DNA from: a virus
Virus record (IMG/VR): IMGVR_UViG_3300032083_002076
Location: 1-23,709 of that record
DNA length: 23,709 bases
Direction: 5' to 3' (one strand)
Below the pieces are notes generated by a model. That model was not told the origin of the DNA and ran no database searches. It worked only from the letters and a program-made list of their open reading frames with translations. Shown one piece after another: positions 2,566-16,225 of the stretch (position 1 is the first letter of the stretch; every line of letters begins with the position of its first letter). Position numbers and translations under genes: made by a program.

Positions 2566-2796
2566 TTATTTACTTTCCCCACCATCTTTCATATGATGAG
2601 TTAAATAGTCTTTTACTGAATTCATATAATCAGCTGACTTTGTTATTTTTGCTTCTAACCACTCAGGTAAATTCATATCATCTGTAATCATTTCAGAAAC
2701 ATCTTTAGCATCACTAGCACATTCCATAGCATCGTGTTTAGCCATCTTACCTTCTTTATGACTATCTTCTTTTAATAAATCTTTTAACTTAATCAC
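2566..2796 (-). CDS. Small protein with (V/M)IKLKD capsid-targeting-like leader
   Basis: A 76-aa protein opening V(M)IKLKDLLKED, followed by a hydrophilic helical body rich in Asp, Met and Lys, including CASDAKDVSEMITDDM. The GTG at 2796 is chosen as the start: GAGAGG lies seven bases upstream, and the codon aligns exactly with the ATG of three sister genes that begin MIKLKD. A TTG further upstream would add five residues that no sister has. The start overlaps the stop of the gene before it by eight bases (GTGATTAA). The leader resembles the T4 capsid targeting sequence (MKTYQEFIAE) with a possible cut after LLKE or HKE. The body has no recognised family. Confidence 0.75.
   Translation of the reverse strand: MIKLKDLLKEDSHKEGKMAKHDAMECASDAKDVSEMITDDMNLPEWLEAKITKSADYMNSVKDYLTHHMKDGGESK
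2779..2796 (-). repeat. MIKLKD leader DNA module, copy 1 (GTG version)
   Basis: GTGATTAAGTTAAAAGAT, identical apart from the first base to the copy at 3005-3022. Its first eight bases also provide the stop of the upstream gene. Confidence 0.75.
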
Positions 2797-3022
2797 GGTT
2801 TTTCCTCTCAAAGTTTTTCATCTTTACCTTAAACTCTATGATGTGTTTTTTATAAAGAGAAGCAACTTCTAAAGATTCTTTTTTTAATCCATCTTTTCCT
2901 AAATCTTTTATAAGTTGTTTAACATTTTTTTCTAACCTATCAAGGTTGTTATTTACATTATCAAAGTATCCTCTGAAATAGTTAGGTATTCCCTCATTTA
3001 AAAAATCTTTTAACTTAATCAT
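2789..3022 (-). CDS. Small protein with MIKLKD leader, probable prohead-internal protein
   Basis: A 77-aa lysine-rich, probably all-helical protein. It begins MIKLKDFLNEGIPNYFRGYF and continues with heptad-like residues (LDRLEKNVKQLIKDL, then VASLYKKHIIEF), so a short coiled coil is likely. A good ribosome binding site (GAGG, seven bases before the ATG) overlaps the stop region of the upstream gene, one base away. The FLNE/G junction at residues 8-11 fits the (L/I)xE cut rule of T4 gp21. The function is unknown. Delivery into the head through the leader is inference from the four-gene pattern and the nearby protease. Confidence 0.75.
   Translation of the reverse strand: MIKLKDFLNEGIPNYFRGYFDNVNNNLDRLEKNVKQLIKDLGKDGLKKESLEVASLYKKHIIEFKVKMKNFERKNRD
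3005..3022 (-). repeat. MIKLKD leader DNA module, copy 2
   Basis: ATGATTAAGTTAAAAGAT. Here the upstream stop lies one base before the module, so there is no overlap. Confidence 0.75.
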
Positions 3023-3699: not shown

Positions 3700-4068
3700 C
3701 TAAATCTTATCCAAATATATTGGTTCGTCACCAAATAAATAAGGTCCAGTAACAACTTGTGTTTTACCACTATGCCAATTAATCACAGCTGAAAACTTAT
3801 TGACTTCACCTGCATTAACAAACCCCATAGAATCGGGTTTAGCAATTATCTTATTGTCAAATTTGACAGATTTTATTGTACCACTTACCTTTACTTTATT
3901 ATCCCAAACTCTTACTCCAACTAATTTTTGAAGATTTTTTTCTATTTTTTTATTTGCTTTGTTGATAGCATCAGCTCTAATTTTGGCATTTTCTTTTTTT
4001 ATACCATTCCACATACTACCAATTTGCTTACCTTTACCTTCAGTAATTATGTCTTTTAACTTAATCAT
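3700..4068 (-). CDS. Small protein with MIKLKD leader, unknown body
   Basis: A 122-aa protein starting MIKLKDIITEGKGKQIGSMW. Behind the leader come a lysine-rich helix (about 18-48) and a beta-rich domain (VRVWDNKVKVSGTIKSVKF onward, then VINWHSGKTQVVTGPYLF). The ATG at 4068 is preferred to one six bases upstream: GGAG lies seven bases before it but directly against the upstream ATG, and only the chosen start aligns with the sister leaders. It overlaps the stop of the preceding gene by eight bases (ATGATTAA). A cut after IITE would remove the leader and free residues 11-122 (inference). The body is not recognised. Confidence 0.75.
   Translation of the reverse strand: MIKLKDIITEGKGKQIGSMWNGIKKENAKIRADAINKANKKIEKNLQKLVGVRVWDNKVKVSGTIKSVKFDNKIIAKPDSMGFVNAGEVNKFSAVINWHSGKTQVVTGPYLFGDEPIYLDKI
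4051..4068 (-). repeat. MIKLKD leader DNA module, copy 3
   Basis: ATGATTAAGTTAAAAGAC, one base different from copy 2. The first eight bases overlap the end of the upstream membrane-protein gene (its final DD and stop). Confidence 0.75.
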
Positions 4069-4384
4069 CAGCATGCTCCAATAATTTTACGTCATCTTCA
4101 GCGTTGTTAAACCAAAAATCTATTACTTTAGCAAATGAACCGACAAATCCACCTAACATTAATAATAATATCTCTTTCCATCCACCCATTACATCAACAC
4201 CACTACTCATAAAGTAAATCATAAGTCCTAATATTGTAGCAAATAGTGAAACAACAACAATACTAATTAACCATTTTTTGTTTTGTCTAAATTTTATTAT
4301 ACCAATTAACTCTGTATTAATAGAATGTTTTTGGTCTTGTATATGATAATCTACTTTATCTTCTTTTTTAGCTAATTCAGCCAT
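4061..4384 (-). CDS. Two-span membrane protein, unknown (holin-like or lysis accessory)
   Basis: A 107-aa protein with a hydrophilic N-terminus of about 36 residues, two hydrophobic spans at about 38-59 and 70-88 (the second is ILLLMLGGFVGSFAKVIDFWF), and an acidic tail ending LEHADD. A strong AGGAG ribosome binding site lies upstream. Two short spans joined by a glycine-containing turn recall small class II holins and antiholins. The long charged N-terminus makes this uncertain, and a clearer holin candidate sits two genes downstream. Its last codons come from the ATGATTAA overlap with the next MIKLKD gene. Confidence 0.65.
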   Translation of the reverse strand: MAELAKKEDKVDYHIQDQKHSINTELIGIIKFRQNKKWLISIVVVSLFATILGLMIYFMSSGVDVMGGWKEILLLMLGGFVGSFAKVIDFWFNNAEDDVKLLEHADD

Positions 4385-4393
4385 TATGAACTC

Positions 4394-4816
4394 CTATAAA
4401 CGGGTATACAATCCTGTATGTTTTGTAAATATTTTTTGTAGTTGGTCATTGTAAACACCTGTTACTTTCTTGACCACTTTTATCTTAGTTCCTCTTATTC
4501 TAATAAATTCCATATCATATAAGTCATTAGATTTTAAATCAACTCTTACATAGTTTATACTTTTAGAGTTTTTACCAATTCTAAATCCTAAACCTTGTTT
4601 ACCAAATGAAAATTGTTTAGCACCGGTCATAGCAATAAACTTATTACCACCTAACTGTTTTAAGGTTATGTCTGCTTGTTGTTTAGTCATACCCTCATCT
4701 ACAGATTTATCTTTTTTCTTTTTCTTTAATAGGTGTGGTCCTGCTGGTTCATCACCAAGCTCACCATCTAAGCCATATCCACAGGTTCCTTCTAGTATAT
4801 CTTTTAATTTAATCAT
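4394..4816 (-). CDS. MIKLKD-leader protein with a small bacterial-type domain of unknown function
   Basis: A 140-aa protein. The leader MIKLKDILEG is followed by a short linker with KKKKKDKSVDEGMTK at 31-45, then a compact domain at about 45-140: LGGNKFIAMTGAKQFSFG, GLGFRIGKNSKSINYVRVDL, YDMEFIRIRGTKIKVV, VYNDQLQKIFTKHTGLYT. I remember this domain as a free-standing small protein in bacterial chromosomes and mobile elements, with no known function. Here it is fused to a leader. Two gp21-like cut motifs, ILE/G and VDE/G, would release the domain exactly (inference). The ATG at 4816 is chosen by alignment to the sister genes and its eight-base overlap with the upstream stop. A GTG two codons earlier is possible. 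Confidence 0.75.
   Translation of the reverse strand: MIKLKDILEGTCGYGLDGELGDEPAGPHLLKKKKKDKSVDEGMTKQQADITLKQLGGNKFIAMTGAKQFSFGKQGLGFRIGKNSKSINYVRVDLKSNDLYDMEFIRIRGTKIKVVKKVTGVYNDQLQKIFTKHTGLYTRL
4799..4816 (-). repeat. MIKLKD leader DNA module, copy 4
   Basis: ATGATTAAATTAAAAGAT, one base different from copy 2. The first eight bases overlap the end of the 362-aa gene (its final DD and stop). Confidence 0.75.
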
Positions 4817-5897
4817 CTTCACTTAAACCTGGATTTTCTTGTTGTCCTCTATCCCATTCTATCATTATTTTATTAAGTGGAATAAGACCTTTTTCATATG
4901 CCTTTTCTATAATTTTTCCATCTACTTTACTACCGGTTGACCTATCTACCAATTTAATTACATCTCTAATCTCTCTTGAGAATTTTATAAAAGCCATATC
5001 AAATTTTCTTAGTATCATACTAGCTTGTTTTTTTTGACCTTCATTTACGGATTCTTTTACACCCTTACCACCCATTTTTTTATAAAGCTTTATTAGATTT
5101 TTTAGATGGTCTTCATCTCTTGCATTAGTAACTCTACCTTGTTTCTTAATCTTCTTTTGAAACATTAGTATAGCATCTTTAATTTTATTTAGTTCCATAG
5201 CAGCTTCATTTACATCTTCTTTAATTCCTAATACCTTTGGCATTTTTAAAGTCATATCAACAAGTTCATCAGAAGTATATTTTTCCATAGCTTTCTGATA
5301 CTTCTTCATCTTTGGGTGATTGTAAATCTTCATAATAAGATTAGCAGTTTTACCGTTCATCTTTGTACCGGTAACATTACCATACTTATTTTGTTTAGCT
5401 AAGTTTTCAATAGATTTTAATACTTTTGAACTTTCATTCATTTGATATTCTCCAAATACCTCGTCTAATACTTCATCTATTATTGGATTGAAGTCAGGCA
5501 TATTATTTTCTTTTTTCAAACGACTTTTTTCAGCTCGTCCTCTATTTTTTGATTCTTTTTCAAATCCCACAATTTTTCCTCCCTTATGAGAAGCATCTTT
5601 ACCATCACCATTTCCATAAGTTCCTTTATCTCTATTATACTTATTTAATTCTGCTCTATACTTTTTAGACTTAGTGGATGATTGAAATTTTTTATATTCG
5701 TCTTTGTAATCTCTCTCTTCTTTTTTTATCGGTAAATCATCGTGTTTGGTTTTAGCATATTTTTTCACACTACCTTTCTTCATAGACTTAGCAGCATCTT
5801 GAGCATCTTTAGAAAATTTACCGGCAGGTTGTTCACCCTTTTGGATAGACCGAACAATTCCCATGAACTTCTGTTGTTTCTTGGAAACCGATGGCAT
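4809..5897 (-). CDS. Composite protein: KKQQKFMG (DUF3008-like) head, HNH-like remnant, three NE-bounded helical segments
   Basis: A 362-aa protein of joined parts. Residues 1-56 (MPSVSKKQQKFMGIVRSIQK, then KYAKTKHDDLP) match a short phage/bacterial protein I remember as DUF3008. Residues 62-129 (RDYKDEYKKFQ, GDGKDASHKGGK, NRGRAEKSR) look like the small HNH-related proteins of marine phages. The D-x-x-H-K is kept but the rest is shortened, so nuclease activity is doubtful. Residues 130-362 are three helical segments separated by MNE/SS (153-156), VNE/AA (229-232) and VNE/GQ (284-287). These could be cut sites for the prohead protease encoded just upstream, making it a small polyprotein (inference). 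A GAGGGG ribosome binding site overlaps the protease stop. Confidence 0.75.
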   Translation of the reverse strand: MPSVSKKQQKFMGIVRSIQKGEQPAGKFSKDAQDAAKSMKKGSVKKYAKTKHDDLPIKKEERDYKDEYKKFQSSTKSKKYRAELNKYNRDKGTYGNGDGKDASHKGGKIVGFEKESKNRGRAEKSRLKKENNMPDFNPIIDEVLDEVFGEYQMNESSKVLKSIENLAKQNKYGNVTGTKMNGKTANLIMKIYNHPKMKKYQKAMEKYTSDELVDMTLKMPKVLGIKEDVNEAAMELNKIKDAILMFQKKIKKQGRVTNARDEDHLKNLIKLYKKMGGKGVKESVNEGQKKQASMILRKFDMAFIKFSREIRDVIKLVDRSTGSKVDGKIIEKAYEKGLIPLNKIMIEWDRGQQENPGLSEDD

Positions 5898-5898
5898 T

Positions 5899-6489
5899 TT
5901 ATCCCCTCATTATAGAGTTAATAATAGACTCAATTTTGTTTTCTGATTTTGGTTGTTCTACACCTTCATTAACAGGTCTCATGAAAGCACCATGTGTAGA
6001 TGGATTTGATACGAAATCAAATGCAATAAGTTCAAAGTCAGGTTGAACTTGAACGGTGTCTGCTTCTTTCATTGGTTCTACTGAACCTAATCCTCTTGAA
6101 GAGATACCAAGTTTTATACCTGATTTAAATAATTCTTTTAAGATGTTTCCAGCAGGTGTTGATAGAACCTCAACAGTTCCTAACAAGTCATCACCATCCC
6201 AATGCATCTCAATAATATTATGTGAAGCATTGTTTAGATTAACAACAGAAGAATCAGGATGGTCTAACTCACCTAATGCTCTTCTTTCTGTTACTTGTTC
6301 TGATAGATATTTAGATACTTCTTTTAAAAGAACTTCTCTTGGATACACTCTACCATTTTGATTTTTGGATTCTGCTCTTTGTAAAACACCTTTTACAATT
6401 AACCGACCATCATTTTCTTTTATAGATTCATCAATTTTATTTCTTGATATTTCAAATGGTCTTACATCTACTAATAATTTTTTATTCAT
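5899..6489 (-). CDS. gp21: Prohead core protease (T4 gp21-like)
   Basis: A 196-aa protein with the T4 gp21 / herpesvirus-assemblin-like serine protease signature: NGRVYPREVL at 45-54, RALGELDHP with the presumed catalytic His77, ASHNIIEMHW at 88-97, and KLGISSRGLGSV with the presumed nucleophile Ser at 130-131, then the C-terminal core FELIAFDFVSNPSTHGA at 152-168. It would cleave scaffold, capsid and internal head proteins after (I/L)xE and then itself. A RPVNE/GVEQ motif at 171-178, just after the core domain, may be the self-cleavage site (inference). A ribosome binding site (AGGA) precedes the ATG. Its neighbours include many short proteins with similar motifs. Confidence 0.92.
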   Translation of the reverse strand: MNKKLLVDVRPFEISRNKIDESIKENDGRLIVKGVLQRAESKNQNGRVYPREVLLKEVSKYLSEQVTERRALGELDHPDSSVVNLNNASHNIIEMHWDGDDLLGTVEVLSTPAGNILKELFKSGIKLGISSRGLGSVEPMKEADTVQVQPDFELIAFDFVSNPSTHGAFMRPVNEGVEQPKSENKIESIINSIMRG

Positions 6490-8003: not shown

Positions 8004-9770
8004 TTACTCTTTTATTATGTTATCTTCACTCAACAAAGATGATTTCTTTTTAGGAAATTTTTCTTTGAGTCTATCTAGTATTCCCTCTCTAGCAATTACC
8101 GTACTAGCTTTTGATGTAGCAAGTGGAGATTTACCTTTAAACTCTCTTTTCCCATAGGACCTGTCTGTATCCTTTAAACTATCATGTCCATACTTATCTT
8201 TCATAGTATCTCTGTCTTTAAAAGAATCTTTTTTACTACCACCCCAATCACCTTTTCTGCTTACTGAAAAGTCATCATCTTCATCTTCATTATCTTCTTG
8301 TGGTGCTGGTTCTTTAGCAGGATCACTTCCTTCTGATTCTATTTGCTCTAATCTAAACTTTTGTTTTGTATCATCTACAATACCTTCATAAATGTCAATT
8401 TGTTTCTTTTCAGAAAAATCAAATATATTATCATAAATCCACTCTCTTGAAAATAACTTTGTTTCCATAGCTTTTTCAGCTGCTTCTATTTGTTGGTTTA
8501 ACAACTCAAGTTTTTCTTGCTCATGAATCATAGATGGATTTTGTAACTCTAAACTAAAGTCAATTAAATCAGAATCATTAAATCCTTGTGAATAAAGATG
8601 AACAATACCAATCTTAGTTAATTCACTTACAATAATTTTTTGTAATCTTTCTATTGTTCTAGCAAATCTTACATCTTCAGCAGCCAATGTAGCTTTACCA
8701 CCACTTAAACCTTCTTCATATCCTAAGAAAGCCTTTGGTATTCTTAAACTAGCCATCAACTTGTTTCTTAGATATTCTATGTCATCTATTTGGTCATTAT
8801 TAGAAAGACCTTGTAATGTATCTATCTGTGTTCCACTATCTCCACCACGAACTGGCAGAAAAAAGTCTTCAGTAACAGATTCTACATTATATTTTAAGTT
8901 ATATTCACCTGTTTTTTGGTCAATAACAGGAGTTTTCTTCATCTTGTTGATGATTTTTTGCATAAACTGTTCAACTTCTCTTGGTGGTATGTTTCCAACA
9001 TCTATCTTGAACACTCTTTTCTCTGGTGCTCTCATGATACGGTGAATTAACATAGCATCTTCCATAAGAGTTAATTGTTTAAATATTTTTCTTCCGTTTT
9101 CTAATAAAGAACGACCATATGGTAAAAAGTTTGTATCAGATAATACACGGAAGTGTGCTATCTCATAGTTTTCTTTTATTTCTTTTTTATTATCTTCAAC
9201 TTCAAACTGAATAAGTTGTGGGTTAGCAGGATCGTGGTCTTCTAATCTAGTAATATCATAAGCAGAAATAGGTTTTACATTTACTACTCCGTATTTATCA
9301 ACAATATCCAACTGAAGATAAAAGTCTCCATACTTAGTCATATTACGAATCCAACTCCATAAGTTAAATTCAATATTTATAACATCATAAAATAAATTGT
9401 GTAAAATCTTTTGAACTTGACTATTTTCACTTTTTACTTTAAGTATTTCACCCTCAATATTATCAACGGTTGATTCATCTGAATATATGTCAAGAGCAGA
9501 AGCAATAATCGGGTCTTGATCCATTAACTCATAATCTTTAAATAAGTCATGTTTTCTTATTTCATAAGCAGCTCTTCTATTTTGAGCGGTTGCATATGGA
9601 TTTGAATAATTGTTTTGTATCATCCGATTATATCGGTCAACAAAATTTGATGTCAAACTTGTTTGTGAGTAGTCTAAATCTTTTACTACCAATCTATTAT
9701 CATCAGCTTTTCTGATGATAACATTAGATTGAAATAATCTACCAAGTCTTGTAAATAAATTGTCTGCCAT
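8004..9770 (-). CDS. gp20: Portal vertex protein (T4 gp20-like)
   Basis: A 588-aa protein, close to the length of T4 gp20 (about 520 aa) plus a charged tail. Recognisable segments in order are DQDPIIASALDIYSDEST (about 84-101), YGDFYLQLDI (about 146-155), the strongly conserved RIMRAPEKRVFKIDVGNIPP (about 244-263) with the stem helix after it, EDFFLPVRGGDSGTQIDTLQG, and LRNKLMASLRIPKAFLGYEEG. It forms the dodecameric ring that starts prohead assembly, holds the terminase during packaging and later joins the neck. Residues after about 490 (EDNEDEDDDFSVSRKGDW and on) are hydrophilic and probably disordered. It starts three bases after the terminase stop, whose GGGG acts as the ribosome binding site. 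Confidence 0.95.
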   Translation of the reverse strand: MADNLFTRLGRLFQSNVIIRKADDNRLVVKDLDYSQTSLTSNFVDRYNRMIQNNYSNPYATAQNRRAAYEIRKHDLFKDYELMDQDPIIASALDIYSDESTVDNIEGEILKVKSENSQVQKILHNLFYDVINIEFNLWSWIRNMTKYGDFYLQLDIVDKYGVVNVKPISAYDITRLEDHDPANPQLIQFEVEDNKKEIKENYEIAHFRVLSDTNFLPYGRSLLENGRKIFKQLTLMEDAMLIHRIMRAPEKRVFKIDVGNIPPREVEQFMQKIINKMKKTPVIDQKTGEYNLKYNVESVTEDFFLPVRGGDSGTQIDTLQGLSNNDQIDDIEYLRNKLMASLRIPKAFLGYEEGLSGGKATLAAEDVRFARTIERLQKIIVSELTKIGIVHLYSQGFNDSDLIDFSLELQNPSMIHEQEKLELLNQQIEAAEKAMETKLFSREWIYDNIFDFSEKKQIDIYEGIVDDTKQKFRLEQIESEGSDPAKEPAPQEDNEDEDDDFSVSRKGDWGGSKKDSFKDRDTMKDKYGHDSLKDTDRSYGKREFKGKSPLATSKASTVIAREGILDRLKEKFPKKKSSLLSEDNIIKE

Positions 9771-9773
9771 GTT

Positions 9774-11357
9774 TTACCCCAATAGCCAAGTTAAGTCTTC
9801 TTCTTCATTTTCATTAATTTTTATTTTATATGGATTATGTTTAGGAACATTGTTTGATGTCATTACTGCTGAGTTTCCATTTAAACTTCCAATAGAACTT
9901 ACCAAACTACTTTGAAATTCGTTTCTTTCTGATTGAATACGAATCGCAGTATCCCTAATCCATAGTAAAATAGAATAAGACATAACAAGGTCATCATTAT
10001 ATCCTTCTAATGCTTCGGTCTTACTATTCTTATATATAAATACAAAAAGTTCATCAATTAAACGAGTTGATTTTATCTTTACCATCTTTTCTCTGGTATA
10101 TTCTTCCATCTTAGCAATAATCAACGGTTTAGACTTCATAGTTGTTGTGAAACCTGGTATCTTGTTTCTATCTATTTGTCTATATCTGTTTGTATGTTGA
10201 ACATCTTCATCTACAATAAGGTGATTTTTTTCTTGATAAAAAAGATTTTCATATCCTCTATCAATAATTGTTTGTAATGTAGCCCAACCTATGTTATTGT
10301 TTTCCACAACAAGTAAGGCATCATTGTATTTTGTAGCTAACTCAATTAAAAAGTTTCCAAATTCGGTTGTTCCTAACTGACCTTTGTATTCTGCTACTTG
10401 TTCCATTTCTTCTATATCAAATACTTGAGCAGTGCTGTAATCAGTTCCATCTCCTCTAGCAACATCAGCACTAACCAAGTATTTTTTAGCATAATCTGGA
10501 TATCCCCATATCCATAAGTTTCTATCAAACCCACTCTTCTCACTTGGCTCACAACATACATTATCTTTATACCAACCCAATATAAGAGGATCAACAACTG
10601 AACGACCAGAACTTAAAAAGTCAGCATCACATTCTTGAGCAGCTTTACTAGGTCCTAATATTTTATCTTGTTCATCTCTCCAACTCTGGTCTCTTTCAGG
10701 ATGGTCTGTCCAATGAAGTTTGATTGTATTAAATTTATTTGTTCCATCTTTAGCATCCATCCAAGTTTTGTGAAACCAATTACCCACACCATTAGGTGTT
10801 GATATACCGATACAACGACCACCAGTAGCAAGTGTCTGTTGAGCGGCAGTCCAGATAATATCAATCTTATCAATGAAAGCAGCCTCATCAAGTATTAGTA
10901 GAGACAAAGCTTCAGAACGACCAGCAGACTCATTAGAAGCAATAGCTTTTATCTGACTTCCGTTCTTAAATATAAGTGAAAGTTTGTTGTTTTCCACAAT
11001 AGCAGTTTTTAACCAATTAGGTAAACCCTCATACATAATACGGACTTTTGTTACCAAGTTTTTTGCTGTATCTTTTGATGTAGCAATACATAGGATGTTT
11101 TTATCATTGTGAAATAACATCATCCATAAAGCATAAGCAGCACTTAGGGTTGATATACCTAACTGACGAGATTTTAGTACAACATTATAGTCGTGTTTCT
11201 CAAACTCATCTAATACATCATACTGATAAGGATAAAGTTTAAACTTTATCTTACCTCGTTGTGGATGTTGGATAGTACAAAACTCATTGATAAAGTAACT
11301 AGGACTTTTAGCACACTTTACATAGTTTTGTTTTATCGCTTGTTTTAAGTTACTCAT
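9774..11357 (-). CDS. terL: Large terminase subunit (T4 gp17-like)
   Basis: A 527-aa DNA-packaging motor with both domains complete. The ATPase has a variant Walker A SRQLGIST (63-70), Walker B LLILDEAAF (153-161, with Asp157 and Glu158), and the coupling motif GISTPNG (184-190). The RNase H-like nuclease shows Asp298 (VSADVARGDGTD), Glu352 (VVENNN) and the C-terminal acidic pair in YNDDLVMSY (453-460). It would pump DNA through the portal encoded next and cut concatemers. It starts inside an ATGA overlap with the zinc-finger gene. T4 places tail sheath and tube genes between terminase and portal; here the two are directly adjacent. Confidence 0.97.
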   Translation of the reverse strand: MSNLKQAIKQNYVKCAKSPSYFINEFCTIQHPQRGKIKFKLYPYQYDVLDEFEKHDYNVVLKSRQLGISTLSAAYALWMMLFHNDKNILCIATSKDTAKNLVTKVRIMYEGLPNWLKTAIVENNKLSLIFKNGSQIKAIASNESAGRSEALSLLILDEAAFIDKIDIIWTAAQQTLATGGRCIGISTPNGVGNWFHKTWMDAKDGTNKFNTIKLHWTDHPERDQSWRDEQDKILGPSKAAQECDADFLSSGRSVVDPLILGWYKDNVCCEPSEKSGFDRNLWIWGYPDYAKKYLVSADVARGDGTDYSTAQVFDIEEMEQVAEYKGQLGTTEFGNFLIELATKYNDALLVVENNNIGWATLQTIIDRGYENLFYQEKNHLIVDEDVQHTNRYRQIDRNKIPGFTTTMKSKPLIIAKMEEYTREKMVKIKSTRLIDELFVFIYKNSKTEALEGYNDDLVMSYSILLWIRDTAIRIQSERNEFQSSLVSSIGSLNGNSAVMTSNNVPKHNPYKIKINENEEEDLTWLLG

Positions 11358-11863: not shown

Positions 11864-14800
11864 TTAAAAAAACATCAATCCTGTTATTTGATTTATAGGA
11901 GCAAAAGCACCTGTAAACTTATAAATATTACCATTATATTTAAATACCAATCCTTCAGTTGGAACAATAGCATCAAACCCACCGATAGCATTTAATCTAT
12001 CTAATTGTATTTTTAATTTATTTAACTTTTTTAAGTCACCACCACTTCTTATATCGGATATAGCAGCTTTAAGTTTCTTTCTCATATTCTGTACTGATTT
12101 TGCTGGATTGACGGCTAGCCACCCATCCATATTCTTCATTATCTCAGCACCAACTTCAAAAAATAATTCTTCAAATGGTTTCATATTATCTTTTACCATT
12201 CTAGCATGGTCTAATTTTTCTGTAACTAAAGTCCATTCTAAAAACTTATTATTTTTTATTGTAGCTTTCATATCTCTTATTGAATATGATTTATCAAAGA
12301 AAGCCCATCTCATTGTAAGTCTTTTAAGAACATTTGCTGGTATCTTATATTTAAATTGTTTAGCAGCATTAAAGATATATTCTTCCCAAAATCTTTGATG
12401 ATATAATCCAAGCGTATCATTATCTTTAAGAGCATATTGACTCTGTAATTTAGATAAACGGCCGTGAAATTTTTTCTTCATCTTACCAAAGTCTTGATGT
12501 TTAGGGACAGTAACAAAGTTTGGTTTTGATATTTTATAATGTTTTTGTATATGTTGATTAACTTGTTTTATCATACCTTGTAACATTCTTGCACTATCTT
12601 TTGCTTGTCCTATTGGTCTACCATTATCGTCATATTCAATTGCACCGTGAAAAAGTAATTCTGTAATATCATAGTTGACCACATTCTCACTAGCAGGCCA
12701 CATCACTTCTAAACTCATAAACTTAGAACCATTACCAAAAATCTTATCTTGTTGTTTTTTAGAAAGAGCACCGATTGCTTTTGATAAATCTCTCATCGCA
12801 TATACAAAAGCATCTCGTATAGAACCTCTACCTTTAAATTTATTTTCTACATCTTTTATGGTTAAAGCTGTTTCACCTTTATTTTTAAGATGTCCTTTAT
12901 TACGAGCAGCAATAAGTTTTCCATCTTTGTAACTTATCATTAAGTTTTGACCATCTGTTTTTTCTGTAACATTATCTTCACGATTTAACTGACCACCCAA
13001 TCCCAACTCTATTATCTTTTTTAAATCTTTAAAAGTTAATTCTTTATCATCAAATGGATGATTCATATGTCCGTAGGCTCCGCCCATTAATAATAACTCC
13101 TTTCCGTTTCTTTCTAAATTACTTGTAAGTGAATAAACCTCTTTTACAATATCATATTCATCGTGCTGTTTGTTTCCTCTATCTTGGTCTGTATCAGTTG
13201 GTTCTTCTTTTTCTAATTGGTCTAATGTATTTTTACTATGTTTAAGAACTGACTTTCTTGATTTTTTAAGTTTGTCTGTATATTCATAATCTTGATTTTT
13301 TAAAATCATATCAATATGGTCTAACCAATGATTCCACAACTCACTTCCAACTAAATCTAAATCATTAGCAGCACTTGGAGAAGCTGCTCCAGCAGGTCCG
13401 TATGATACTGAACCTATTGGACCATTTGGATATTTTGGAATATCAAACTCTTGACTATAGTAGTTTTCATCATCAATTATATTCTTAGCAATCTCCCAAC
13501 CTAATCTACCAGCTTCTTTCTCACCTCTAAGCAAGTAAGATTTTAAACTTGATATAAAACCAGGACCATCATCAACCCCACCTGATTGAGTACCTGTGCT
13601 TTCTAATAAACCACGATAAACCTCATATAGTTTTTTAAACTTATTGGTCATCATATTATACACACCTTTGTCGTAATATCCAAATGTTTTTTTGAAAAAC
13701 TTTACTTTTTCTTTATCATCTACTTTTGGATTACCTAACATATCTCGTGTTTTAGTTCCACTTATGTTTCCGACTTGAGGAGCAGTTATAATGTATCCGT
13801 GTTCATCAAACCCTTTCATATCTTTAGTATAAGGTTTAAAATATTTACCACCTAACCTACCAGCATCTTTTTCACCAACAACATAAACTACTGCTGTAGT
13901 TTTAGGATCAAATTTGTTTAATAAGTTTTTTGCTACATATGGTGACTTTTCCATAACGATACGATTCTTTGGAATACCAACCTTTACCATATGTCTAACT
14001 TTTTCTTTAAAGTTCATAGGATGACGAGGTGGTTTTTTTATATCGGATGTGGTTATGTAAGCCTCATCAACTTGTTTAGACAACCACTTGTATGTAGCAA
14101 GATGACCTGAATGAAAGGGTTGAAATCTTCCACCAAATACACCAACAACTTTCTTAATGTTTTTTTCTTCCTTCAAATTGGATACACTATCCCCATTATC
14201 AACATTAGAATATACAACACTTTCTCTATGTAAGTCAAGCGTTTTATTTATTTCTTTTATTCCTCTACCACCCCTATCAAATTTAGTAAATTTTTGTAGC
14301 TTACCAAAATGTTTTTCTTTACTCATCTTATCTTGTTTAGTCCATTTCATCTTATCAAAGACTTTCATTCTCATATGTTGTTTAACTATATAATGAATAG
14401 TATCAACATCACCACCCATTGATTTTATCCAAGTAGCATATTTCTTTACTAATTGTGCTGAAACTTTCTCGTGTCCATAATGAGTCCAAAACCCTTTCTT
14501 TGGATGTAGTTTTGCTGTTGAGTCTTTTCCTATGTCGTGGAATAATGCTGATAAAGCAAAGTCTATGTCACCGGTTTTTAATGCTCTGTTAGTTACAGCG
14601 ATAGTATGTTTTAAAACATTACCTTCGGGATGAGCATCTCTTCTTTGGTCATAGTTTTTAAGATTATAAACTCTCTTTTTTAAAGCACTAGGAAGAGCAT
14701 CATAGATGTCCCTAAATTTTTTAGGTTTAGGTCTAACTGCTATCTCTTTTATTTTTTTACCAGTATCGGTTTTTGTAAAAGGTCCTCTTCTCAATGTTGA

Positions 14801-16225
14801 AAATTTTACAGGTGTCTCAATACCAAATAATTTCTTTGGTGCTAAAATTCTCAATGTAATCATCTTTCTACTATTATCAACACCCAATGTTTCAAATTCT
14901 ATTTCTTTATATTTCTTACCCTTCATAGTAAGATTATGACCTGTAATAAACTTTTCTACTTTATTACCTCTAACTGCAAATGCTTCGTTCAAGAATTTAT
15001 CCCTTTCTAATTTTTGTATAGCCTTACCTATTTCTCTTCCTTTTAAATCCTTTGAAACATCACTACCCTTTACCGATAGTTTAAATTTAACCATCTTCTT
15101 TAAATCTTTTCCTATATACTTACCCCATTGAATAATTTGATTATCAGTTAAGGATGTTTTCTCTTGAAACTTTTTAGTTAGAAATATATTTTCAGGTTTA
15201 AAGTTCTGTAATACATTTAGGAATTGAATATTTTGTGCTTCATCTCCTGAGTATCTTAATTTGTTTAATTTAATACCCAATGAATTAGCATCATTCTTTC
15301 TTAAAATCCAAGCCAATAATAAGATATGGTCATTCTCATCTATATATGGTTTACTAATCTTTAAGCCAGGTAAGATTTGGTCTGTAAATTTTAACTCATC
15401 AGTTTTCTGTAGGTAGTTTTTGGTTGATTTTGCTTTCTTAATCGACTTAACAAACTCATCTCTAATTCTTTCACCACTAATACCTTTAAGACTTGGATTA
15501 TCCATCAGAGCCTGCTTGGTATCCTTAGACATCTTACCACCAAGAGCACCGTGAAATCTAAGGGCTCTCATCTTCCTCAATGGGTCCTCATCAAACCTTT
15601 CACTAGCCTTCCCAACAGTTCTTATCTTTCTCTTCTTTAAATCTGCTATACCACCAACCAAATCAACTATATCTTTTCTATCTATATCATAAAATAAAGC
15701 ATTGATGGTTAAATCTCTTCTCTTTACATCACCCTCAATGTCTGTATAATCAACAGCACTCGGCCTCCTACCCTTTCCAATATCTTTTCTGAATGTTGCT
15801 ATTTCATGCCCACCTACAACCACCACCCCAAAAGATTTACCAACCTCTGTGGTTTTCAATCCACCATCTTTGGCTATCTTCAATACCTCATCGGGCTTAG
15901 CATCGGTGGCTAAATCAAAATCTTTTGGATTCTTTCCTAATATTGCATCTCTAACTGCTCCACCTACAATATACAGTTTTTTATTATTTTTCTTAAATAA
16001 TTTATGTATCTTTTCTATGTCATTTGGAATATTAAGTTTAAGGTTTTTACTTTCATCTACTTTTTTATAACCACTACCATAAGGAACTGAGGTGTGTCCT
16101 TTCTTCTTCATCTTTTTTATCTTAGAAAGTTTAGAACCACCTTTGATAGTTCCATCACCGGCGACTATACCCATCTCATCTATGACGGGTTTGGTTATTT
16201 CTTCTATTAGTTTTTTTAAGCTCAT
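11864..16225 (-). CDS. Four-enzyme fusion: CCA-adding-type nucleotidyltransferase, HD, NadM-like, KxDG ligase
   Basis: A 1453-aa protein with four recognisable enzymes. (1) Residues ~60-410 are a class II CCA-adding/poly(A) polymerase head: GGAVRDAILGKNPKDFDLAT with Asp102/Asp104, RRDLTINALFYD (169-180) and RFDEDPLRKMRALRF (210-224). (2) ~530-650 is an HD hydrolase: His540, His563-Asp564, His585, His617. (3) ~690-870 is an NMN-adenylyltransferase-like domain: GRFQPFHSGH (699-708), ISGTKTR (821-827). (4) ~1040-1453 is a nucleotidyl ligase: KTDG with Lys1089, AARNKG, SLEVMWP with Glu1173, EGLVFK (1424-1429), YKF with Lys1436. An insertion of about 250 residues separates ligase motifs III and IV. 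Short VDE/S, LNE/A, HRE/S and LLE/S motifs lie at 56-59, 412-415, 667-670 and 873-876, close to domain borders. RNA repair plus NAD synthesis is inferred; no frameshift is seen. Confidence 0.9.
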   Translation of the reverse strand: MSLKKLIEEITKPVIDEMGIVAGDGTIKGGSKLSKIKKMKKKGHTSVPYGSGYKKVDESKNLKLNIPNDIEKIHKLFKKNNKKLYIVGGAVRDAILGKNPKDFDLATDAKPDEVLKIAKDGGLKTTEVGKSFGVVVVGGHEIATFRKDIGKGRRPSAVDYTDIEGDVKRRDLTINALFYDIDRKDIVDLVGGIADLKKRKIRTVGKASERFDEDPLRKMRALRFHGALGGKMSKDTKQALMDNPSLKGISGERIRDEFVKSIKKAKSTKNYLQKTDELKFTDQILPGLKISKPYIDENDHILLLAWILRKNDANSLGIKLNKLRYSGDEAQNIQFLNVLQNFKPENIFLTKKFQEKTSLTDNQIIQWGKYIGKDLKKMVKFKLSVKGSDVSKDLKGREIGKAIQKLERDKFLNEAFAVRGNKVEKFITGHNLTMKGKKYKEIEFETLGVDNSRKMITLRILAPKKLFGIETPVKFSTLRRGPFTKTDTGKKIKEIAVRPKPKKFRDIYDALPSALKKRVYNLKNYDQRRDAHPEGNVLKHTIAVTNRALKTGDIDFALSALFHDIGKDSTAKLHPKKGFWTHYGHEKVSAQLVKKYATWIKSMGGDVDTIHYIVKQHMRMKVFDKMKWTKQDKMSKEKHFGKLQKFTKFDRGGRGIKEINKTLDLHRESVVYSNVDNGDSVSNLKEEKNIKKVVGVFGGRFQPFHSGHLATYKWLSKQVDEAYITTSDIKKPPRHPMNFKEKVRHMVKVGIPKNRIVMEKSPYVAKNLLNKFDPKTTAVVYVVGEKDAGRLGGKYFKPYTKDMKGFDEHGYIITAPQVGNISGTKTRDMLGNPKVDDKEKVKFFKKTFGYYDKGVYNMMTNKFKKLYEVYRGLLESTGTQSGGVDDGPGFISSLKSYLLRGEKEAGRLGWEIAKNIIDDENYYSQEFDIPKYPNGPIGSVSYGPAGAASPSAANDLDLVGSELWNHWLDHIDMILKNQDYEYTDKLKKSRKSVLKHSKNTLDQLEKEEPTDTDQDRGNKQHDEYDIVKEVYSLTSNLERNGKELLLMGGAYGHMNHPFDDKELTFKDLKKIIELGLGGQLNREDNVTEKTDGQNLMISYKDGKLIAARNKGHLKNKGETALTIKDVENKFKGRGSIRDAFVYAMRDLSKAIGALSKKQQDKIFGNGSKFMSLEVMWPASENVVNYDITELLFHGAIEYDDNGRPIGQAKDSARMLQGMIKQVNQHIQKHYKISKPNFVTVPKHQDFGKMKKKFHGRLSKLQSQYALKDNDTLGLYHQRFWEEYIFNAAKQFKYKIPANVLKRLTMRWAFFDKSYSIRDMKATIKNNKFLEWTLVTEKLDHARMVKDNMKPFEELFFEVGAEIMKNMDGWLAVNPAKSVQNMRKKLKAAISDIRSGGDLKKLNKLKIQLDRLNAIGGFDAIVPTEGLVFKYNGNIYKFTGAFAPINQITGLMFF

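Follow-up and report, generated by a model that had tools for sequence, protein, structure and literature searches.

A predicted head-targeted polyprotein of exchangeable enzyme modules in a T4-like phage

Why a phage should join several unrelated enzymes in one very large protein, encoded close to its head genes, is the question raised by IMG/VR virus record IMGVR_UViG_3300032083_002076, analyzed here over a stretch of 23,709 nucleotides (positions 1 to 23,709 of the record; hereafter, the window). A first-pass annotation, made from the letters alone, had described a single protein of 1453 amino acids (aa) that combines tRNA-end repair, HD, NAD-synthesis and ligase domains, and had seen in it an all-in-one kit for restoring tRNA and NAD after abortive-infection attack, possibly carried in the virion. 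Our analysis confirms the uninterrupted open reading frame (ORF), and the sequence evidence presented below suggests that its product is probably a head-targeted polyprotein of a marine T4-like phage, cut apart during head maturation.

11864..16225, minus strand: complete ORF, predicted head-targeted polyprotein; ATG at 16225, 1453 aa, no internal stop, colinear full-length relatives.

A second IMG/VR contig (L002) holds a full-length copy of this protein with 100% identity, and two further relatives, L003 (69% identity) and L006 (64%), are also full-length and colinear; hence, an assembly artefact or a frameshift fusion can be ruled out as the origin of the ORF. Pfam profiles identify, above their curated cut-offs, a PolyA_pol head domain at aa 84-202 (E 1e-29), an RNA-binding domain at aa 232-288 (5e-5), an HD domain at aa 537-622 (2e-7; 31.9 bits against a cut-off of 22) and a CTP_transf_like domain at aa 696-785 (1e-9). 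PHROG 2244, annotated as tRNA nucleotidyltransferase, matches the first enzyme domain at 2e-65, and the PDB matches comprise CCA-adding enzymes (1miv, 1e-30), archaeal NMN adenylyltransferases and, for the HD module, the C-terminal part of a poly A polymerase chain (3wfo). The catalytic residues of the tRNA nucleotidyltransferase (GG-RD, DxD, RRD and EDxxR motifs) are intact in 12 of 12 relatives and the metal residues of the HD domain (H...HD...) in 11 of 11. The tRNA nucleotidyltransferase, HD and NMNAT-like domains are thus backed by profiles in an intact protein, and the ligase proposed by the first-pass annotation is supported by conserved motifs and weak matches. None of the domains reaches an NCBIfam equivalog cut-off (174.5 bits against 290 for the CCA-adding profile PRK13299, 164.5 against 305.65 for the poly(A) polymerase PcnB and 23 against 181.2 for NadM), and the identities given here are therefore family-level assignments. 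The modules of the protein, in order from its N-terminus, are the following.

16175..16225, minus strand: predicted N-terminal propeptide, aa 1-17 (MSLKKLIEE ITKPVIDE/M; family leader MSLKKL(I/V)EE), the leader being kept in relatives.
16052..16174, minus strand: basic 'SKIKKMKKKGHTSVPYGSGYKKVDE' linker module, aa 18-58, a movable module (SPSRK..GYKKVNE) found in other orders.
14984..16051, minus strand: class II tRNA nucleotidyltransferase (CCA-adding/poly(A) polymerase family), aa 59-414, end FLNE/A.
14744..14983, minus strand: small beta-rich module, aa 415-494, end IKE/; it moves independently and shows beta strands in the structure model.
14252..14743, minus strand: HD hydrolase module, aa 495-658.
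13601..14167, minus strand: NMNAT-like adenylyltransferase, aa 687-875, between NLKE/ and KLYE/ or LLE/.
13139..13600, minus strand: 'DDGP' helical module, aa 876-1029; a separate ORF in L056 (14724-15503) and L055, replaced or missing in others.
11867..13138, minus strand: ligase-like nucleotidyltransferase with a long helical insert, aa 1030-1453 (KTDG 1089-1092, E1173, EG 1424-1425, K1436).

An initial scan of IMG/VR yielded 252 related stretches, of which 80 were retained; the ligase alignment, used as query in another scan, yielded at least 559. The relatives of the 1453-aa protein display at least 36 module architectures. The four domains occur together in few of them, being fused in the window, L002, L003 and L006, and many relatives consist only of leader, NMNAT, DDGP module and ligase (about 840 aa). 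Extra modules are found in others: a P-loop kinase of the zeta/PNK type (Zeta_toxin 1.5e-8, AAA_33 3e-8), for which the PDB returned only a weak adenylate-kinase match, a ParB-like module (ParB_N 4e-4, L083), a basic module and, by eye, KOW-like and Ntn-hydrolase-like modules. Module order varies as well, the ligase lying ahead of the NMNAT in L155, and in L050, L055, L056 and L073 the nucleotidyltransferase-HD half is encoded by an overlapping gene of its own. In L056, the neighbouring genes encode a leader-bearing kinase of the zeta/PNK type, a CCA-HD protein and an NMNAT-ligase protein. As judged from these alignments, the family is a mosaic of exchangeable modules and not a fixed four-enzyme fusion, and the all-in-one kit initially proposed gives way to modules that relatives may lack, gain, arrange in another order or encode in separate genes, and that are probably cut apart.

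Among the remaining passengers of the family, aa 1012-1291 of L203 (also found in L202, L208 and L223) bear weak ChaN/TIKI similarity (Cofac_haem_bdg, E 0.03), and of those at aa 726-1073 of L152 and aa 555-724 of L180, inspected by eye, one resembles ADP-ribosyltransferases and the other, in L180, has a zincin-like HEIDH motif. Relatives also occur on contigs of metagenome-assembled genomes (L152-L156) labelled Flavobacteriales, Euryarchaeota, Neomarinimicrobiota, Pelagibacteraceae and Bacillus; these are probably binned phage contigs, the host of which is uncertain.

The positions at which modules are exchanged carry a distinctive residue pattern. Module edges were taken as the ends of local alignments between relatives, internal to both proteins and defined without reference to any motif. 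In a first set of 83 non-redundant edges, [LIVMF]xE lies within four residues of 32, against 11.5 expected (maximum of 2000 trials, 26), and glutamate is the exact last shared residue in 24; by residue, glutamate is enriched at these edges, aspartate depleted and lysine up only slightly. An independent second set, drawn from 47 proteins none of which is near-identical to the first, gave [LIVMF]xE at 52 of 112 edges against 15.4 expected (maximum of 5000 trials, 31), with glutamate exactly last in the shared block 28 times against 6.3 expected (p 1.6e-11). The pooled counts are 111 of 297 edges against 41.9 expected, and 69 exact final glutamates against 16.0; because the edges come from related proteins, some dependence between the trials persists once redundancy is removed. 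The mosaic tail fibres of the same phages present no such pattern ([LIVMF]xE at 2 of 43 edges against 2.9 expected; one exact final glutamate against 1.5).

In T4, the prohead protease gp21 cleaves after L/I-X-E, and processing of the core proteins yields several fragments (PMC9026906). The major capsid proteins of the relatives present QLIDE/A or QLISE/N where T4 gp23 has FLTE/A, and three of the cut sites predicted in the window protein (414, 494 and 658) coincide with low-confidence linkers in its structure model.

A second shared element is a ten-residue leader, typically MIKLKDLLxE, which forms the N-terminus of 73 of the 1675 ORFs in the fetched loci, against 0.12 after shuffling, and the pattern of which occurs internally only once in 311,541 aa. 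Unrelated passengers in 18 clusters follow the leader, among them a Nudix-like protein and a standalone kinase module. It resembles the N-terminus of T4 gp24 (MAKINELLRE), the propeptide of which, 10-20 residues long, is cleaved off (PMC5694885). The window protein starts MSLKKLIEEITKPVIDE, a variant of the leader in which [LI]xE occurs at aa 8, 9 and 17. In seven longer contigs, leader genes lie between capsid, protease, terminase and family gene, with the exception of one cluster in G003.

That cluster, at about 48344-50774 of G003 (L031 contig), comprises four leader-bearing ORFs away from recognised head genes, one of which runs into a KOW-like block. In many relatives (L014 7564-8004, L023 2073-2504 and others), a Nudix-like protein, recognised by eye and bearing a KLKDLLxE-type leader, is encoded immediately upstream of the family gene and overlaps it.

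The window itself encodes a T4-type protease that could cut such sites, 5.4 kb from the 1453-aa gene. In the order of transcription, genes on the same strand encode tail fibre proteins (S74-type, by eye), a GH108 endolysin, the 1453-aa protein, a small ORF, the large terminase, the portal, small ORFs, the Peptidase_S77 protease, a DUF3008-like multi-block protein, small ORFs and an actin-like protein. The features that bear on the argument are listed below.

9774..11357, minus strand: terminase large subunit (PHROG 6e-51).
8004..9770, minus strand: portal protein (PHROG 5e-69).
5899..6489, minus strand: prohead core protein serine protease of the T4 gp21 family, Peptidase_S77 (Pfam 5e-32; PHROG head maturation protease 2e-55).
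4809..5897, minus strand: second multi-module protein, adjoining the protease, with a DUF3008-like start and blocks ending MNE/, VNE/ and VNE/.
4394..4822, minus strand: leader-bearing small ORF, MKMIKLKDILE/G.
3700..4074, minus strand: leader-bearing small ORF, MIKLKDIITE/G.
2789..3022, minus strand: leader-bearing small ORF, MIKLKDFLNE/G.
2566..2811, minus strand: leader-bearing small ORF with GTG start, VIKLKDLLKE/D.

The RDYKDEYKKFQSS.. block of the protein at 4809..5897 recurs in a relative of the 1453-aa protein (L152, aa 292-382). By their terminases, the nearest cultured relatives are Microcystis phage Mel-JY01 (54%) and Flavobacterium phage immuto (53.5%). The actin-like protein (411-1433; Pfam Volactin, 4e-72) closes the head gene block.

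The head-protease gene, the cleavage-type sites at module edges and the leader shared with genes of the head region together lend support to the earlier suspicion of virion carriage, and they can be accommodated in a single scheme. The N-terminal leader would bring the 1453-aa protein into the prohead core, where the gp21-type S77 protease would separate the modules by cutting at [LIV]-x-E, the predicted cuts falling at 17, 58, 414, 494, 658/686, 868/875 and perhaps 1029. The released enzymes (tRNA nucleotidyltransferase, HD hydrolase, NMNAT-like and ligase-like proteins, with small accessory modules) would remain in the head and be delivered into the host along with the DNA, and the set of enzymes carried would be under rapid exchange between phages. 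Packaging, cleavage, injection and the substrates of the modules are all inferred here from sequence. There is precedent for such variety in T4, the internal proteins of which form a diverse set directed against host defences and have a capsid-targeting sequence as their sole common part (PMC3012670).

With regard to the function of the cargo, RNA-end repair appears to fit best and is plausible, given an HD module, a ligase-like module and a 3'-end nucleotidyltransferase in the protein, and a kinase gene nearby in L056. Such repair might concern tRNA first, with the HD hydrolase trimming ends, the ligase sealing them and the nucleotidyltransferase rebuilding the 3' end. That the module set of the window protein is used in this way is put forward tentatively, as something short of an even chance. 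A broader proposal, in which the head-maturation protease would dice up a modular cargo polyprotein and a single gene would thereby provide a packed RNA-repair pathway (kinase, HD phosphatase, ligase and 3'-end nucleotidyltransferase) acting before phage gene expression and open to re-equipment by module swaps between cleavage sites, we regard as unlikely in its entirety.

Several observations weigh against the polyprotein scheme or the function assigned to it. The edge motif and the leader pattern were picked after a first inspection, the second edge set being independent, and the cleavage motif is short and also found inside folded domains (aa 213, 297 and 721-808). The leader of the window protein (MSLKKLIEE) differs from MIKLKDLLxE, and grouping the two was a judgement made by eye. 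In the subclade of the window protein, methionine replaces glutamate before the ligase (LLLM/GGAYGH), and for this reason cleavage at that junction may fail or take place at 1029. As for RNA repair, the scores of the CCA-enzyme and poly(A) polymerase profiles are near each other (174 and 165 bits), and tRNA genes were found neither in the window nor in about 354 kb of relatives.

The ligase-like region of the window protein, aa 1030-1453, gives no significant match to Pfam, NCBIfam or PHROG. K1089 (of KxDG), E1173, E1424-G and K1436 are kept essentially without exception in 82 non-redundant relatives, and in an alignment of 24 relatives the motifs E-K-x-D-G, A-R-N-K, a mid E, E-G-x-x-F and Y-K-x-T-G are invariant or nearly so. 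The order of these aligned motifs is that of covalent nucleotidyltransferases such as RNA ligases. PF09414 (RNA_ligase) matches several relatives weakly, at motif I only (E 0.003-0.03), and the top PDB fold match of the region's model is T4 RNA ligase 2 (1s68), a non-significant hit (Foldseek E 1.6) to a low-confidence model (predicted local distance difference test score, 62). A profile search of PDB with the region returned nothing relevant. A comparison with viral predicted structures gave only unnamed or 'cytidyltransferase-like' relatives. On the strength of its motifs, the C-terminal 424 aa are likely, but not proven, to be a ligase, for which reason we call them ligase-like. Clear membership of the Rnl2 family was not borne out by a profile-profile comparison (hhalign) with 13 Rnl2 sequences, which was non-significant.

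A standalone ligase of this type, from a huge phage (L084), begins MKFLKSYEEFLNE..LILE/GG. In four relatives the ligase is split over two genes: L050 (2471-5269 and 6179-6412), L055 (2176-3903 and 5162-5911), L056 (9803-12643 and 14724-15503) and L073 (3101-5959 and 7919-8644). In these, the KLDG nucleophile lies in a piece encoded by a gene of its own downstream, and the upstream gene encodes the remainder; an [IL]xE site precedes each piece, and the break comes after SWR(D/A) or its equivalent.

The NMNAT-like domain carries the motifs GRFQPFHSGH (aa 699-708) and ISGTKTR (aa 821-827), and Foldseek matches it to NMN adenylyltransferase (NadM) structures with a probability of 1.00. HxGH is intact in the clade of the window protein and is replaced by GPHH in 40 of 60 relatives, which suggests a changed active site or substrate outside that clade. 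Phages with NadM have been reported always to have NadV (PMC9503650), and NadV/NAMPT is absent in Mel-JY01 and LR756508, the two relatives with fused domains that are searchable at genome scale; a NadV partner was seen only in LR756500, where the ligase stands alone. The proposal that both tRNA and NAD are restored therefore fares unevenly: its RNA half is plausible, relatives adding a zeta/PNK-type P-loop kinase to the set, and its NAD half is weakened by the absence of NadV in those two relatives and by the altered HxGH.

The alternative that survives best retains head targeting and cleavage, with the cargo consisting of general host-takeover or DNA-handling factors and the constant NMNAT-ligase pair acting on phage DNA ends or NAD pools. 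It is a variant of the polyprotein scheme that differs from it only in cargo function, and the confidences attached to the two overlap; taken by itself, it seems rather unlikely, if a serious contender. The great variety of passengers (ParB-like, KOW-like, kinase with Zeta_toxin/AAA_33 matches, Nudix-like, Ntn-hydrolase-like and weakly ChaN/TIKI-like) argues for it, and polyvalent proteins typically mix functions (PMC5512222); on the other hand, the tRNA nucleotidyltransferase, HD, ligase-like and kinase modules that neighbour each other in L056 form a coherent RNA-end set.

That the protein works as one covalent multi-enzyme which restores tRNA and NAD after abortive-infection attack, as initially proposed, we consider distinctly improbable. 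The catalytic residues are intact in the clade of the window protein, the window protein, L002, L003 and L006 hold all four domains fused, and CCA enzymes and NAD-synthesis genes are known in phages as means against host attack (PMC7824862, PMC9503650). Nevertheless, the exchange, reordering and separate encoding of modules and the cut-type sites between them run counter to a covalent enzyme, and so do the missing NadV and the altered HxGH; moreover, no NADase or tRNase context was seen. PADLOC defence models gave no match.

Still less probable is a purely structural role, in which a scaffold-core protein would keep enzyme folds for assembly and its fragments would be expelled like those of T4 gp22, gp67 and gp68. 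T4 core proteins are indeed cut into multiple pieces, most of which leave the head (PMC9026906), and a similar chain adjoins the protease (4809-5897), but active-site residues are invariant in the tRNA nucleotidyltransferase, HD and ligase across diverged relatives, and expelled filler would not need them. Equally improbable is an origin of the edge glutamates in recombination or linker composition with no head processing: the linkers are rich in lysine and glutamate and the motif is short, but it is glutamate at the exact last shared residue that is enriched, with aspartate depleted and lysine rising little, tail fibres of the same phages show no enrichment, and the leader stands on 18 unrelated proteins, mostly near head genes.

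If the preferred reading, a head-targeted polyprotein cut by the prohead protease, is right, a whole class of marine T4-like phages would bear interchangeable, protease-released enzyme payloads in the head, and the prohead protease would be the link between capsid-targeting peptides and injected multi-domain proteins, both of them already known. It would also provide a sequence rule for spotting head cargo in unannotated phage genomes, expose a ligase-like family that has no library model and make RNA repair by phages before gene expression testable.

The closest known counterparts are the polyvalent proteins known from phages and conjugative elements (Iyer et al. 2017, PMC5512222), which are likewise very large phage proteins with unrelated enzyme domains and many architectures, are predicted to be injected and were likened to polyproteins by their authors. 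The 1453-aa protein agrees with their definition, with at least two biochemically unrelated domains in one polypeptide and a variable architecture. Release of polyvalent proteins is predicted to occur through embedded zincin-type peptidases, common among them but not universal, and they were noted to be scarce in cyanobacteria and archaea. In contrast, profile searches with Pfam, NCBIfam and PHROG found no embedded peptidase in the 1453-aa protein, which has instead prohead-protease-type sites, a short shared leader and a constant NMNAT and ligase-like pair. That pair is not described in the polyvalent-protein paper, the main text of which mentions neither CCA nor NMN (PMC5512222). The family shares the principle, and an apparent reliance on the prohead protease, as read from the sites, sets it apart.

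With the T4 internal proteins IPI-III and Alt, which bear a capsid-targeting sequence and are gp21 substrates, the window system shares a short N-terminal peptide ending in L/I-x-E on unrelated cargo, a gp21-family protease (S77), T4-like head genes and diverse host-directed cargo; T4 cargo, however, consists of single proteins trimmed at their ends, whereas here a single chain holds many enzymes, separated by sites. In T4, the enzymes of tRNA repair are synthesised inside the cell, each as its own protein. As in T4-type tRNA repair (Pnkp and RNA ligases) and with phage CCA enzymes, the kinase-, HD/phosphatase-, ligase-like and CCA-type activities seen here could heal, seal and rebuild tRNA, but here their genes lie with those of the head, an HD domain takes the place of the phosphatase of T4, and the ligase is no recognised Rnl1 or Rnl2 enzyme. 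The NadV-NadM salvage pathway (PMC9503650) and NARP1 (PMC12774641) have in common with the family a NadM-like HxGH adenylyltransferase domain, which differs here in its fusion to a ligase-like domain, in the loss of HxGH in most relatives and in the lack of NadV in the two searchable genomes.

Among cultured phages, Mel-JY01 encodes the NMNAT-ligase pair in WWT39297.1 (639 aa, 33-40% identity, NIIAE/GG before the ligase), a minimal form without CCA, HD or other modules, whose annotation as 'cytidylyltransferase like protein' derives from the NMNAT part only; its gene lies a few small genes upstream of TerL. In the literature searched, nothing was found on Mel-JY01 or on an enzyme polyprotein cut by a prohead protease. 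In immuto, QQO91862.1 (L224 2132-4855; 907 aa, annotated NadR) has, by eye, a nucleotidyltransferase-like start, an NMNAT-like HxxH block and two zincin-like motifs, and looks on this inspection like a polyvalent-type protein with an NMNAT in a cultured relative.

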